Origin: Desulfobacca acetoxidans
GTDB lineage: Bacteria > Desulfobacterota > Desulfobaccia > Desulfobaccales > 0-14-0-80-60-11
Direction of reading: 5' to 3'
Assembly: GCA_020722205.1 (NCBI GenBank)
Contig: DYLF01000007.1
Span: 1 to 48,472, forward strand
Length of the DNA stretch: 48,472 nucleotides
How positions within the stretch are numbered: the stretch's first letter is position 1; the number at the start of each line of letters is the position of its first letter. The notes beneath the pieces are model-generated. The model made no database searches. It had not been told where the DNA came from and saw only the letters and a program-made list of their open reading frames with translations. Below are positions 3,387-43,351 of the stretch, piece by piece. The translations under genes and the position numbers were made by a program.

Positions 3387-5057
3387 ATGGACGATTGGGA
3401 AAAATTAAAAGAGTTAAAGGTCAAATATGACGCTCAGGTAGAAAAAGTGCTGAAAAAATTCCCGGAGCGCCGACCTGAGTTTGTCAACACCTCCGGCATC
3501 CCCATCCACCGGGTGTACACGCCTCTTCAAATGCAGGACTTTGACTACGCCGAAAAGCTGGGTATGCCAGGGCAGTATCCCTTCACCCGAGCGGTGCAGC
3601 CGACAGCCTACCGCGGCCGCTTCTGGACCATGCGCCAATATGCCGGCTTCGGCACCGCGGAGGAAACCAACAAGCGTTATCACTTCCTTTTGAAGTCCGG
3701 ACAGACCGGGCTATCGGTAGCCTTTGATCTGCCCACCCAGATCGGCTACGATTCCGACCACGAACTGGCCCGCGGGGAAGTGGGTAAAGTGGGCGTAGCC
3801 ATTGACTCCCTTTGGGATATGGAACGTCTCTTCGCCGGCATCCCGTTGGACCAGGTAAGCACCTCCATGACCATCAACTCCCCCTGCGCCGTTATTTTGG
3901 CCATGTACCTGGCAGTCGCCGAAAAGCAAGGCGTTCCCTTCAGCCAACTCCGGGGTACGGTGCAGAATGACATCCTAAAAGAATATCCGGCCCGAGGAAC
4001 TTACATCTTCGGACCCCGGCGATCCATGCGCCTCATTACCGACATCTTCGCCTACTGCACCAAAGAGGTGCCTCAGTGGAACACCATCAGCATCAGCGGC
4101 TACCACATCCGGGAGGCCGGCTCCACCGCAGTGCAGGAGGTGGCCTTCACCTTGGCCAATGGCATCGCTTACGTGGAGGCAGCCATCCAGGCGGGCCTGA
4201 AAGTGGACGAGTTCGCTCCCCGATTATCCTTCTTTTTTAATTCTCATAACGACTTTTTGGAGGAGGTGGCCAAATTTCGAGCCGCCCGCCGGCTGTGGGC
4301 CAAGATCATGAAAGAGCGCTTCGGGGCCCAGGACCCCCGCTCTCAGATGCTGCGCTTCCACACCCAAACGGCCGGCTGCACCCTGACCGCCCAGCAGCCC
4401 CTGAACAACATCATGCGGGTAGCCTTTCAGGCCATGGCCGCGGTTCTCGGCGGCACCCAGTCCCTGCATACCAACTCCTTCGACGAAGCCTTGGCTCTGC
4501 CCTCAGAGCAGGCCGTGCAAGTGGCTCTGCGCACCCAACAGGTCATTGCCTATGAAACCGCCGTCTGTGACACAGTTGACCCCTTGGCCGGCTCCTACTA
4601 TATCGAATACCTGACAGACCAGATAGAGGCCAGAGCCCAAGATTACATCGACCAGATCGACCGCCTGGGCGGTGCAGTGGCAGCCATCGAAAAAGGCTTC
4701 ATCCAAAAGGAAATCCAGGACAGCGCCTACCGCTACCAGAGGGAAATCGAAAAAGGCGACCGGATCATCGTGGGACTGAACAAATTCCAGGTGAAGGAGG
4801 AGGCCAAGCCCGCAGACTTGTTGAAAGTGGACCCGGCGGTGGGCGACCGGCAAGTGGCCAGACTAAAGGAACTCAAGGCTACCCGCGATAACTCTGCGGT
4901 GCAAACCGCCCTGGCGGAACTGAAAAGCGCTGCCGAAGGCGATCTCAACCTGATGCCGCCCATCCTCAAAGCGGTCAAATCCTTGGCCACTCTGGGGGAA
5001 ATCTGCGACACCCTGCGTGCCGTCTGGGGTGAATACGAAGCCACGGCATTTGTCTAA
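3387..5057 (+). CDS. Methylmalonyl-CoA mutase, large catalytic subunit
   Basis: This subunit interconverts (R)-methylmalonyl-CoA and succinyl-CoA with adenosylcobalamin, in propionate or succinate metabolism. At 556 residues it has the substrate-binding TIM barrel only; the B12-binding domain is a separate gene downstream, as in archaea and many anaerobes. Family signatures include [15 protein letters not shown] near residue 32, [18 protein letters not shown] near 87, [16 protein letters not shown] near 110, [11 protein letters not shown] near 233 and [15 protein letters not shown] near 328. The [16 protein letters not shown] segment near 360 is typical of the mutase. The start at 3387 fits the usual N-terminus. 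Late cobalamin genes at the other end of the window (47-48 kb) supply part of the cofactor pathway. Confidence 0.95.
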
Positions 5058-5192: not shown

Positions 5193-5597
5193 ATGACCGA
5201 AGCCAAAAAAATTCGCGTGCTGGCCGCCAAACCGGGACTGGACGGTCATGACCGGGGTATCAAGGTGATTTGCGCCGCCCTCCGGGACGCCGGCATGGAA
5301 GTGGTCTATACCGGCTTGCGGCAGACCCCCGAGCAGATCGTGGCGGCTGCCGTGCAGGAGGACGTGGACGTCATCGCTATGAGTTGTCTGTCCGGGGCTC
5401 ACAGCTACCTTTTCCCCCGGGTCATGGAAATTCTCAAGGACAAGCAAATCGCCGATATCCTGGTGCTGGGCGGCGGCATCATACCCGATGAGGATCTCCC
5501 GGCCCTGAAGGCCAACGGCATCGCCGAAATTTTCCGACCCGGCACCGATACCAACGATATCGTCAAATTCATTCAAGACCACGTGCGAAGAAACTGA
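5193..5597 (+). CDS. Methylmalonyl-CoA mutase, cobalamin-binding small subunit
   Basis: A 134-residue Rossmann-like B12-binding domain. The base-off/His-on cobalamin motif is DGHDRG at residues 17-22, with His19 as the lower axial ligand. It is followed by the usual [17 protein letters not shown] and [10 protein letters not shown] segments. ATG 5193 is chosen over an in-frame GTG at 5178 because GGAGAGG (5182-5188) sits at the right spacing before the ATG and would fall inside the coding sequence otherwise. It must pair with the large subunit encoded at 3387-5057 to form an active mutase. The 135-base gap between the genes contains a GC-rich hairpin. Confidence 0.95.
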
Positions 5598-7687: not shown

Positions 7688-8894
7688 TTACACCCCCATC
7701 GTCGGGGAAGAAGTAGTGAGCCAGCTCTATCGTCTGGCCGAACGCCTTAAAGGCCGCCGCTTTGTCCATATCAACTCCACCGCCGTCGGCGGCGGCGTAG
7801 CGGAAATGCTTGCCCGAGCCATACCGCTCTTGAACCAGCTCGGCCTGGAGACCACCTGGGAGGTCATCATGGGTGACCCTTTTTTCTTCGAGGTTACCAA
7901 GGCCTTCCACAACGGCCTGCAAGGCTTCAGGGTGCAGCTGACCCCCAGCATGCTGGAGCATTACCGCCAAGTTAACCTGGAAAACGCCAAGCGATTTGCC
8001 TGGGAAGCGGATGTGGTGATGGTGCATGACCCCCAACCGGCTAGCTTGATTGAAGTATTGCGCCCCCAAGCCCGGCGCTGGGTCTGGCGCTGCCACGTAG
8101 ATGTCTCCCGCCCCCACCTGCCGGTGTGGCGTTTCCTGCGGAAAATCGTCAGACAATACGACGCCTCCGTCTTTTCCATGCCCCAGTTCGCCCAGAACCT
8201 CCCTCACCCCCAATACCTCATCCACCCCTCAATCGATCCTCTGAGCGAAAAAAACCGGGAGCTGACCGAGAAGGAAATCCAAACAGTCCTTTACCGCCTG
8301 GGGATTGAGAAAGACAAACCCCTGATCCTGCAAATATCTCGCTTTGACTCCTTCAAAAACCCTGTGGGAGTGATCCAGGCCTTTCGCCTGGTGCGCCGTC
8401 ATACTCCTTGCAAACTGGTGCTGGCCGGCGGTGAAGCCACCGACGATCCCGAAGGCCCTGCCATTCTGGCCCAGGTCCAGGAAGCGGCCCACGGCGACCC
8501 CGATATCCAGGTGCTGCTCCTCCCCCCGGATGCACACCACGAGGTTAACGCCCTGCAACGGGCCGCCGACCTCATCGTCCAAAAATCCACCCGTGAAGGC
8601 TTCGGCCTCACCGTCACCGAGGCCATGTGGAAGGGCAAACCGGTCATCGGCGGCGCCGTGGGCGGCATCGTCCTGCAACTCAGAGATTACCATACCGGCT
8701 TTCTGGTGCAGTCCCCTGAGGGCTGCGCCTTCCGCATCCGCTACTTGTTGCACCGCCCGCAACTGGCCCACCGCATGGGTCAGATGGCCCGGGAGTTTGT
8801 CCGCCTGCACTTTCTCATCACCCGCCATCTCCGGGACTATCTCACCCTGTTGATCTTACAGGCCAACCCCGATCGCCGTTTGGTCGAGTTCTAG
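7671..8894 (+). CDS. treT: GT4 glycosyltransferase, TreT-like trehalose synthase
   Basis: TreT makes trehalose in one step from an NDP-glucose and glucose. The 407-residue sequence has a GT-B fold. N-terminal domain: INSTAVGGGVAEML near residue 34, the HDPQPASL loop near 116, and WRCHVDVS near 139. C-terminal domain: LQISRFDSFKNP near 220 and the nucleotide-sugar motif STREGFGLTVTEAMWKGKP near 304. The combination matches TreT rather than generic GT4 enzymes. The start is GTG 7671, preceded by GGAGAA. It overlaps the DUF5752 gene by 17 bases and ends in TAG, 22 bases before otsA. Substrate assignment is by family resemblance and context. Confidence 0.8.
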   Translation: MITLNDYTPIVGEEVVSQLYRLAERLKGRRFVHINSTAVGGGVAEMLARAIPLLNQLGLETTWEVIMGDPFFFEVTKAFHNGLQGFRVQLTPSMLEHYRQVNLENAKRFAWEADVVMVHDPQPASLIEVLRPQARRWVWRCHVDVSRPHLPVWRFLRKIVRQYDASVFSMPQFAQNLPHPQYLIHPSIDPLSEKNRELTEKEIQTVLYRLGIEKDKPLILQISRFDSFKNPVGVIQAFRLVRRHTPCKLVLAGGEATDDPEGPAILAQVQEAAHGDPDIQVLLLPPDAHHEVNALQRAADLIVQKSTREGFGLTVTEAMWKGKPVIGGAVGGIVLQLRDYHTGFLVQSPEGCAFRIRYLLHRPQLAHRMGQMAREFVRLHFLITRHLRDYLTLLILQANPDRRLVEF

Positions 8895-40559: not shown

Positions 40560-40592
40560 GGCACCAATTAAAGTCCAATATGCCATGCGGTC

Positions 40593-40620
40593 TTGCTGAT
40601 GGACTGTTTTGTGGTACAGT
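40593..40620 (+). promoter_or_regulatory. Possible promoter of trmJ
   Basis: TTGCTG (40593-40598), a 16-base spacer and TACAGT (40615-40620) resemble -35/-10 boxes. Transcription would begin at or within a few bases of ATG 40628, so the mRNA would be nearly leaderless, in line with the lack of a good ribosome site. Confidence 0.3.
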
Positions 40621-40627
40621 AGGGTTG

Positions 40628-41425
40628 ATGACAAAGCAGGAGAACAGAGCCCCCCAACAGGTCGGGGTGCGGCTGGAACGGCTGGCCATTGTACTTAACC
40701 GTCCGCAGTTGCCGGAAAACATCGGCGCAGTGGCAAGAGCGGCCTGCAATACCGGCATCAAGCGCCTCATATTGGTCCAGCCGGAGAGTGTGGATTGGGA
40801 GCGCATGCGCATGATGTCCACCGGCGCAGCCGCCCATCTCCTAAAAAGTATGACCATCTACGATGACCTGGCCACGGCATTAGCGCCTTTTTCCTATGTG
40901 GTCGGCACCACCGCCCGATTGGGCGGCATCCGCAAGGAAGTTTTTACCCCGCGGGACATTGCCCAACGCCTCATTGAACTCTCCCCTCACAATGATATTG
41001 CCCTTCTCTTCGGCCCGGAAAACTGGGGACTGACCAACAAGGAATTGCCTCTCTGCCATGCTCTGGTGACGATCCCCACGGCTGACTGTTCCTCGCTGAA
41101 TCTGGCACAGGCAGTAATGGTCGTTGGATATGAGATTTTCGTCGCTTCTGCGACAAATCCCCGTTTCGAACCCCGTTGGGCCAACTCCCGGGAACTGGCA
41201 TCCATGTACGCCATGCTCCAGGAGACGTTGGTGAAGATCAATTTCATCAGTCATCAGAATCCGGAATATTGGATGTTGAAGGTGCGCCGCTTGTTCAACC
41301 GCCATGGGCTCAAGGCCCAGGAGACCCAGGTGATTAAAGGTATCTGCCGCCAGATCGACTGGTACGTCAAGAAAGAGCTGGCAACGGCCAGGATGGAAAA
41401 GGCTGGCAAGGCTGCCGGGGAGTGA
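40628..41425 (+). CDS. trmJ: TrmJ-like tRNA/rRNA 2'-O-methyltransferase (SPOUT)
   Basis: A 265-residue SPOUT-class RNA methyltransferase. It has LAIVLNRPQLPENIGAVARAA (in part) near residue 18, the knot motifs ALLFGPENWGLTNKEL near 120 and VTIPTADCSSLNLAQAV near 145, which match TrmJ (2'-O-methylation of tRNA position 32). The helical C-terminal tail is also TrmJ-like. ATG 40628 is chosen over an upstream in-frame ATG at 40580, because the latter lies before the candidate promoter and adds a non-conserved Cys-rich stretch. The gene ends 8 bases from the end of the convergent aldo/keto reductase remnant. Confidence 0.88.
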   Translation: MTKQENRAPQQVGVRLERLAIVLNRPQLPENIGAVARAACNTGIKRLILVQPESVDWERMRMMSTGAAAHLLKSMTIYDDLATALAPFSYVVGTTARLGGIRKEVFTPRDIAQRLIELSPHNDIALLFGPENWGLTNKELPLCHALVTIPTADCSSLNLAQAVMVVGYEIFVASATNPRFEPRWANSRELASMYAMLQETLVKINFISHQNPEYWMLKVRRLFNRHGLKAQETQVIKGICRQIDWYVKKELATARMEKAGKAAGE

Positions 41426-41433
41426 GCGGAAGT

Positions 41434-42261
41434 CTAAGGTTTGTAATACATCAGACCCCGGGCAAAGGGGGCCACAGCTTTTTCCAGTTGATGTTGGGCC
41501 TGAGGGGAGAGGGGCTGAAAATCCCGGGCTGCTGTCACCAGTTCCTGGACCTGGTTCACCGAATCCGCGCCGATCACCACCAGGTTCACCGGTTGGCTCA
41601 ACGCCTAGGCGATTATCTCTGCTAAAGGCGCTATCTGGAGTTGCGGTAGCAAGCCCCGGCATAAGACTTTCATGCCGATCACCCCCAAACCACGGGCGGC
41701 GGCCTCTTGGGCCAAGGGGAGGAAGCTGCGGAAGTGGGGTTCCGCCGGATTAACCGGCAACAATACGGTGTCAAACTCATCCAGCTCCAACGACCGGCGC
41801 AGGATGCCGGGATCGTGGTGACCGGTGATGCCCAGGAAGCGGGTCAATCCCTCCTCTTTGGCCCAGCGGCAAGCCGTCAGCGCTCCCTCCGGAGCGCTAA
41901 GGGCAGTCAGATCTTCCTCCGTTCTCACCTCATGAACCTGCCAGAGGTCCAGATGGTCGGTCTGCAAATTTTTCAGGCTGGCGGCCAAGTGAGCCTCGGC
42001 TGCCACTCGACTGCGGGCGTGGGACTTGCTGCTCAGGAAGATTTTATCGCGGTATCCTCTGAGGCCTGAACCCAGATAGGCTTCGCTGCCCGCCTAGGCC
42101 CGGGCTGACTCAAAATAGGTGACGCCGGCCGCCAGCGCGGCCTCTATGACCGCCTGGGCTTGGCGCTCCTGTCCGCGGCTGCGCAACGCCCCCTCACCGC
42201 CCAAACCCAAAAGCGTTACCTCCGCCCCGGTGCTTCCCAAAAGTCTCTTTTCTAAGGTCAA
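41434..42261 (-). pseudogene. Aldo/keto reductase interrupted by two in-frame TAG codons
   Basis: Read in one frame from TTG 42261, 275 codons encode a full-length aldo/keto reductase (LLGSTGAEVTLLGLGG start; SSKSHARS with the tetrad Lys; DLWQVHEV with the tetrad His; GITGHHDPGIL; VNLVVIGADSV; final TAG 41434). The frame is broken by TAG at codon 56 (42094-42096) and codon 219 (41605-41607), and by nothing else. Codon 56, in YFESARA-TAG-AGSEAYLG, is exactly the catalytic Tyr position; codon 219, in LAEIIA-TAG-ALSQP, is another position usually Tyr. Both have the same context, GCC TAG GCG. TAG is a normal stop elsewhere in the window, so a young pseudogene is most likely; amber readthrough or sequence error remain possible. 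Confidence 0.75.
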
Positions 42262-42286
42262 GACGCACCACTTTCTGTGGTCGAGC

Positions 42287-43351
42287 CTATTGCGGCGAGG
42301 CCTTTTCCAGGTTGAGGAATTCTCTCAGCAGCTCCTCTTGGTGGGGGGTCAGATTGGTGGGGGTGAGAAGCGACACCTGCACCACCAGATCACCACGCTT
42401 GTGGTTACGCAGATCAGGAACGCCCTCCCCCCGCAGGCGAAAGGTGGCGCCTGACTGCGTCCCCGGCGGTATGGTCAGCGTGGTTTGGCCGTTCATGGTG
42501 GGAACCTCAATTTCCGCTCCCAGGGCGGCAGCCACAAAGGACAACTCAGCCTGATAATAGAGGTCCTTGCCCTGCCGTTTGAACAGATGATGGGGGGCTA
42601 CTCTCACTTCAACGTAAAGGTCTCCGGCCGGACCACCGAAACGGCCGGGTTCGCCCTCTCCCCGCAGGCGCAAACGGGTGCCGTTATCCATGCCCGGCGG
42701 AATGCGTACCTGGACTCGGTCTCTCTTTCTGACGGTGCCGCCCCCGCCACAGGCTCGGCAAGGGGAAGAGATATAACTGCCCGTCCCCCGGCATCTGGGA
42801 CAGGTGGTGAAAACACGGAGGATGCCACGGCTCTGGCTGACTTGACCGCGGCCACCGCATTGGGGGCAGGCTTGCCGCTGGCTACCGGGTTCCATTCCCT
42901 GACCCTGACAATGGTCGCATACTTCCCGGCGCTCGACCTCGATCTCAGTCTCCAGACCCTTAACCACTTGTTCCAGGGTGAGGGTTATCTGATACCGCAG
43001 GTCTGCACCGGGTTGCGCCTGAGGAGCCTGGCTGTGACGCCGCCCTCCAAAGCCAAAAAATTCCTCAAAAATATCCCCGAAACTGCCGAAGATATCATCG
43101 AAACCGCTGAAACCGGCGCCAAGATCCAGGCCATTCAGGCCGGCATGACCATAAAGATCATACAATTGCCTTCGTTCCGCGTCGGAGAGAACCTGATAAG
43201 CTTCTGAAATCCTTTTAAATTGCTCCTCGGCGTTCTTGTTCCCAGGATTGCGATCGGGGTGATACTTCAGGGCCAACCGCCGGTAGGCGCTCTTGATTTC
43301 CTCCTGGGAGGCTTGGCGCGGCACTCCTAGAATTTCATAATAATCAAACAT
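42287..43351 (-). CDS. dnaJ: Chaperone protein DnaJ
   Basis: DnaJ is the Hsp40 co-chaperone that delivers clients to DnaK and stimulates its ATPase. The 354 residues show a J domain ([12 protein letters not shown], with HPD at 31-33), a Gly/Phe-rich linker ([13 protein letters not shown]), and the zinc-finger domain with four CxxCxGxG-type repeats ([32 protein letters not shown]). A C-terminal substrate-binding part follows ([15 protein letters not shown]). dnaK and grpE are not in the window. A TTGACA-16-TAACTA promoter lies upstream. It ends in TAG. Confidence 0.96.

Follow-up and report, generated by a model that had tools for sequence, protein, structure and literature searches.

An aldo/keto reductase gene with two in-frame amber codons in Desulfobacca acetoxidans is most probably a young pseudogene

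An aldo/keto reductase (AKR) gene of D. acetoxidans that is interrupted by two in-frame amber codons is interpreted here as a young pseudogene and an ordinary case of its kind, with a probability of roughly 0.9. The gene is located in the window, i.e., the whole analyzed stretch of 48,472 nucleotides. According to the proposed course of events, a dispensable, single-copy AKR gene would have lost its ribosome-binding site and its ATG start codon and would have acquired two amber codons. A full-length enzyme would not be expected, since initiation would be weak and the first amber codon would stop the chain after 55 residues; the second one would stop any internal restart after residue 218. The lesions and the state of the gene in relatives are directly visible in the sequences, and we infer the recent origin of the lesions, their order and the absence of the protein. 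The features considered are as follows.

40580–41425, plus strand: TrmJ-like RNA methyltransferase gene (named from its sequence by eye), serving as rate control; based on tblastn, it adjoins the AKR gene in several relatives
41434–42261, minus strand: probable AKR pseudogene of 275 codons plus terminal TAG, identified by its PF00248 match and ortholog identity
41434–41436, minus strand: terminal stop of the gene, also TAG; orthologs finish at the same residues, MYYKP
41605–41607, minus strand: in-frame TAG at codon 219, a Tyr/Phe position (among 29 aligned relatives, 25 have Tyr and 4 have Phe)
42094–42096, minus strand: in-frame TAG at codon 56, the conserved (catalytic) Tyr position (all 27 aligned relatives have TAC or TAT)
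42259–42261, minus strand: TTG in place of the ortholog start codon (all 23 orthologs have ATG at the corresponding position)
42265–42278, minus strand: place of the lost Shine-Dalgarno (SD) sequence (GGAG, AGGA, GAGG or AAGG core in 22 of 23 orthologs, none in the window copy)
42287–43351, minus strand: DnaJ J-domain gene (by eye), TAG-terminated, upstream neighbor of the AKR gene

Reading Frame and Internal Stops

Translation of the minus-strand frame from 42261 to 41437 confirmed the original prediction of TAG at codons 56 and 219 in an otherwise open frame, as well as the identical context GCC TAG GCG of both stops. Neither frameshifts nor deletions were found over the 275 codons, and the coding bias of the frame is intact; both observations count against a pseudogene. 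The read-through protein matches the Pfam family PF00248 (Aldo_ket_red) with an E-value of 3e-23 and 82.7 bits (cut-off 24), and the profile of the family matches solved AKR structures, e.g., 9yeb_A and 1ynp_A, which places the protein in the AKR superfamily. Identity to intact orthologs of the same family or order ranges from 61 to 72%.

Residues at the two stop positions were compared across 29 relative loci, of which 27 could be aligned at codon 56 and all at codon 219. A family Tyr had been predicted for both positions; this applies without exception to codon 56, where the column is also invariant in a 23-sequence alignment, but only in part to codon 219, where some relatives carry Phe. 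The catalytic tetrad of AKR enzymes consists of an acid, Tyr, Lys and His. The catalytic Tyr is that of the D/E-x-A-x-x-Y segment, and codon 56 corresponds to it. E51, K79 and H110 are present in the window copy, and the tetrad is incomplete due to the TAG at the place of Tyr.

Loss of the Initiation Signals

The start site was compared with those of 23 orthologs from the same family or order, including two wrecked copies. In the window copy both the ATG and the SD core are missing, and the description of the gene as disturbed by TAG codons only therefore does not hold. Moreover, the 21 in-frame codons upstream include no ATG, GTG or TTG that could serve as an alternative start. Together with the two TAG codons, the TTG replacing ATG and the lost SD sequence amount to more than one independent disabling lesion. 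Two points of the start region nevertheless count against a pseudogene. TTG is able to start translation in bacteria, and the single ortholog that likewise lacks an SD core (L011) is an intact gene.

The lost initiation signals also bear on the quite unlikely explanation that the real gene is intact and that the TAG codons were written by assembly or consensus error. The genome is a metagenome-assembled genome in 180 contigs, and both stops share one context, as such an error would suggest; however, the error would need to account for the lost ATG and SD sequence too. Furthermore, the genome contains 14 other instances of GCCTAYGCG, which shows that this context is not generally miscalled. The sequence GCCTAGGCG occurs at 9 places in the genome (10 rows), 7 of them outside the AKR gene, and at these 7 no in-frame amber was seen in an evident coding frame, the frame at one of them (L006) being uncertain. 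Systematic base-calling error at GCCTAGGCG, which had been suggested originally, was consequently rejected as a general effect, and a systematic miscall of the 9-mer is considered unlikely; a local consensus error retains a small probability.

State of the Gene in Related Genomes

A close ortholog is present in 18 of the 21 genomes of the same family, two of the 18 running off a contig end. The three genomes without an ortholog are 73–93% complete, and some of these absences may represent gaps. Among the seven genomes of the same order outside the family, four carry an intact ortholog, two carry wrecks and one, consisting of a single contig, has none. Both wrecks belong to the sister family and are independent deletions of the same reductase: in G023 (L034), AKR codons ~34–134 are deleted and two stops occur in the remainder, and in G028 (L200), ~38 N-terminal codons are fused to C-terminal codons with a frameshift. 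A second AKR copy was not found in the D. acetoxidans genome, i.e., the gene is single-copy.

Since the ortholog is absent or wrecked in several relatives, the AKR gene is regarded as dispensable and as repeatedly lost. A very recent pseudogene, one of the options originally listed, is thus supported by the loss of the initiation signals and by recurrent ortholog loss and wrecks in sister genomes, and the small number of missense changes fits a recent event.

Neighboring Genes and Selection

The TrmJ-like neighbor was used for comparison of substitution patterns; the DnaJ J-domain gene was not found next to the AKR gene within the short flanks available for the relatives. dN/dS was unsuited for this purpose because the closest AKR ortholog, at ~72% identity, is too distant. 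Of the positions that are invariant in the other genomes compared, the window lineage has changed 16 of 137 in the AKR gene, compared with 11 of 122 in its TrmJ-like neighbor (Fisher p = 0.54). Regarding changed, otherwise invariant AKR columns, the window copy shows the highest value (6 of 107), with at most three in any of 20 others. An interpretation of this value as relaxed selection was set aside, since the long branch of the window lineage is equally visible in the TrmJ-like neighbor. Judged by amino-acid conservation, the AKR gene is hence not clearly more relaxed than this neighbor, and this counts against a pseudogene. The similar rate of change in both genes suggests that the AKR gene was under constraint until recently and then received a handful of hits.

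The same conservation pattern favors an extremely improbable alternative, namely that low-level natural readthrough occurs and the TAG codons down-regulate a still useful AKR gene. Two serial ambers combined with the lost start codon and SD sequence would, however, leave almost no product, and AKR orthologs are often lost. Belinky et al. (2021; PMC7918605) report that in-frame stops occur widely in bacteria, persist only briefly and are enriched in mobile elements, and down-regulating readthrough is proposed there for many of them.

Chance of Two Tyr to TAG Changes in One 9-mer

That both stops are Tyr to TAG changes counts against a pseudogene and remains a mild oddity of the window copy. Assuming equal rates for all one-step nonsense changes, the chance of this outcome is ~0.5%; it decreases to 0.2% when transitions are favored fourfold, both values being post hoc and derived from a simple model. 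Given two Ala-Tyr-Ala sites, the chance of the same flanking Ala codons is ~16% as calculated from Ala codon counts, and the shared 9-mer therefore adds little. Both stop sites form the palindrome GCCTAGGC, at which orthologs differ by nearby bases. A mutational hotspot by template switching at GCCTAGGC was considered only and not adopted, since common Ala codons around TAG create this palindrome anyway.

Amber Suppression as an Unlikely Alternative

A suppressor tRNA that inserts Tyr, or some other residue, at TAG would yield the full-length enzyme. This option of the original prediction is very unlikely, even though both AKR TAGs are located at Tyr positions. No CUA anticodon was present among the 41 tRNA matches to RF00005 in the genome, of which ARAGORN named 39; of the other two, visual inspection identified one as tRNA-Glu, and the last is an incomplete copy of tRNA-Arg. 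A pattern scan for CUA-type tRNAs returned 7 places, none of which is a CUA tRNA as judged by ARAGORN, tRNA identity or fold. Since expected tRNAs (e.g., Ile-GAU and Ala-UGC) are missing from the list, the tRNA set is incomplete, and the assembly may lack some tRNA genes. PylS exceeded the curated cut-off in none of 59 genomes, including that of D. acetoxidans, with one genome of the control set above the cut-off, and a pyrrolysine reading was rejected on this basis. Furthermore, release factor RF1 is present (prfA, 543 bits, cut-off 423), and TAG terminates 105 of 525 sampled long open reading frames (ORFs) in addition to the AKR gene itself. In the window, 5 of the 37 main ORFs end with TAG, in agreement with the earlier count of at least five other genes. 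The search for a suppressor tRNA or pyl genes, proposed together with the prediction, accordingly returned neither a CUA tRNA nor a PylS above the cut-off, and TAG functions as a normal terminator. The features of an amber-recoded genome, a CUA tRNA combined with avoidance of TAG or loss of RF1, were not observed. The lost initiation signals likewise count against suppression.

Three individual tRNA matches were discarded as suppressor candidates: the match at C106:1–72 is the tRNA-Glu(UUC) recognized by eye, a match on contig C16 resembles an isolated T-arm and folds no better than shuffled sequences, and the weak match on contig C93 duplicates the 3' end of tRNA-Arg(UCU) exactly over 50 bases. 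The latter stretch (~5321–5370) has a matching counterpart at C6:6667–6694, and the two may be attachment sites left by an integrated element.

In-Frame Stops across the Genome

In-frame stops were surveyed in a sample that includes the window and totals 1,006,144 bases, or 38% of the genome, with 561 long coding-like ORFs. The coding-bias scan yielded 104 candidates (37 + 28 + 39), 24 of them TAG. Pfam tests were applied to 24 of the 104 candidates, and the remainder was only inspected visually for a downstream start. The AKR gene accounts for two of the TAG candidates, and 14 of the remaining 22 were among those tested with Pfam. In two of these 14, an IS4-type transposase and an IS66 transposase remnant, a single domain extends across the TAG.

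Two IS4-type copies at contig ends (L206:57–590 on C10 and L241 at the end of C44) share a TAG at a conserved Tyr, and a third copy (L242, start of C153) has TAC at that position. This result favors amber suppression and is mildly against the pseudogene reading of the AKR gene. In the IS66 remnant (L232:3793–4338 on C39, minus strand), by contrast, the in-frame TAG corresponds to Thr in two cyanobacterial relatives, which argues against suppression by Tyr. The mixed residues and the mobile-element setting fit ordinary nonsense decay. It is also highly improbable that a suppressor absent from the assembly, or near-cognate UAG reading by the single tRNA-Tyr, provides low levels of both the AKR and the IS4-type transposase.

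Further interrupted frames were observed beside these TAG cases. A glycosyltransferase frame (L193:7353–8465 on C149) contains an in-frame TGA at 7824 between its N- and C-terminal domains and is probably another nonsense pseudogene. A DsrE-like gene (L231:3244–3555 on C32) has an in-frame TGA at 3442–3444, presumably at the expected Cys place of a CxxC-like motif, and a single Pfam domain extends across it; selA is present in the genome, and the gene is likely a selenoprotein gene. In the window, a prfB-like release factor 2 (RF2) gene (45294–44190, minus strand), identified by the prfA search and Pfam, starts with a short ATG frame that stops in CTT TGA (45216–45214), after which the RF2 frame continues in +1. 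This arrangement is taken to be the classic programmed frameshift.

Significance and Comparison with Known Systems

As a pseudogene, the AKR case is of little importance in itself. It illustrates that an otherwise intact frame with ambers at Tyr positions may mimic recoding until its start site is compared with those of orthologs. In addition, it shows that different lesions are repeatedly removing, throughout the order, a gene that most of the family carries.

Pyrrolysine or tyrosine amber suppression is characterized by an in-frame TAG in a conserved gene, and this property is shared by the window AKR. The genome differs from such systems in that neither PylS above the cut-off nor a CUA tRNA was detected and TAG is a common terminator; in comparison with pyrrolysine suppression, the AKR TAGs are moreover located at Tyr rather than pyrrolysine positions. 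With the in-frame stops for which readthrough is proposed (PMC7918605), the AKR gene shares isolated stops and a preserved amino-acid pattern. In contrast to those, its stops were found in no second species, and its start signals are also lost. The closest correspondence is to young bacterial nonsense pseudogenes, with which the AKR gene shares in-frame stops, an otherwise intact frame, lost start signals and an ortholog that is wrecked or absent in relatives; it deviates from them mildly in that TAG has replaced Tyr at each of the two internal stops, within one and the same 9-mer.
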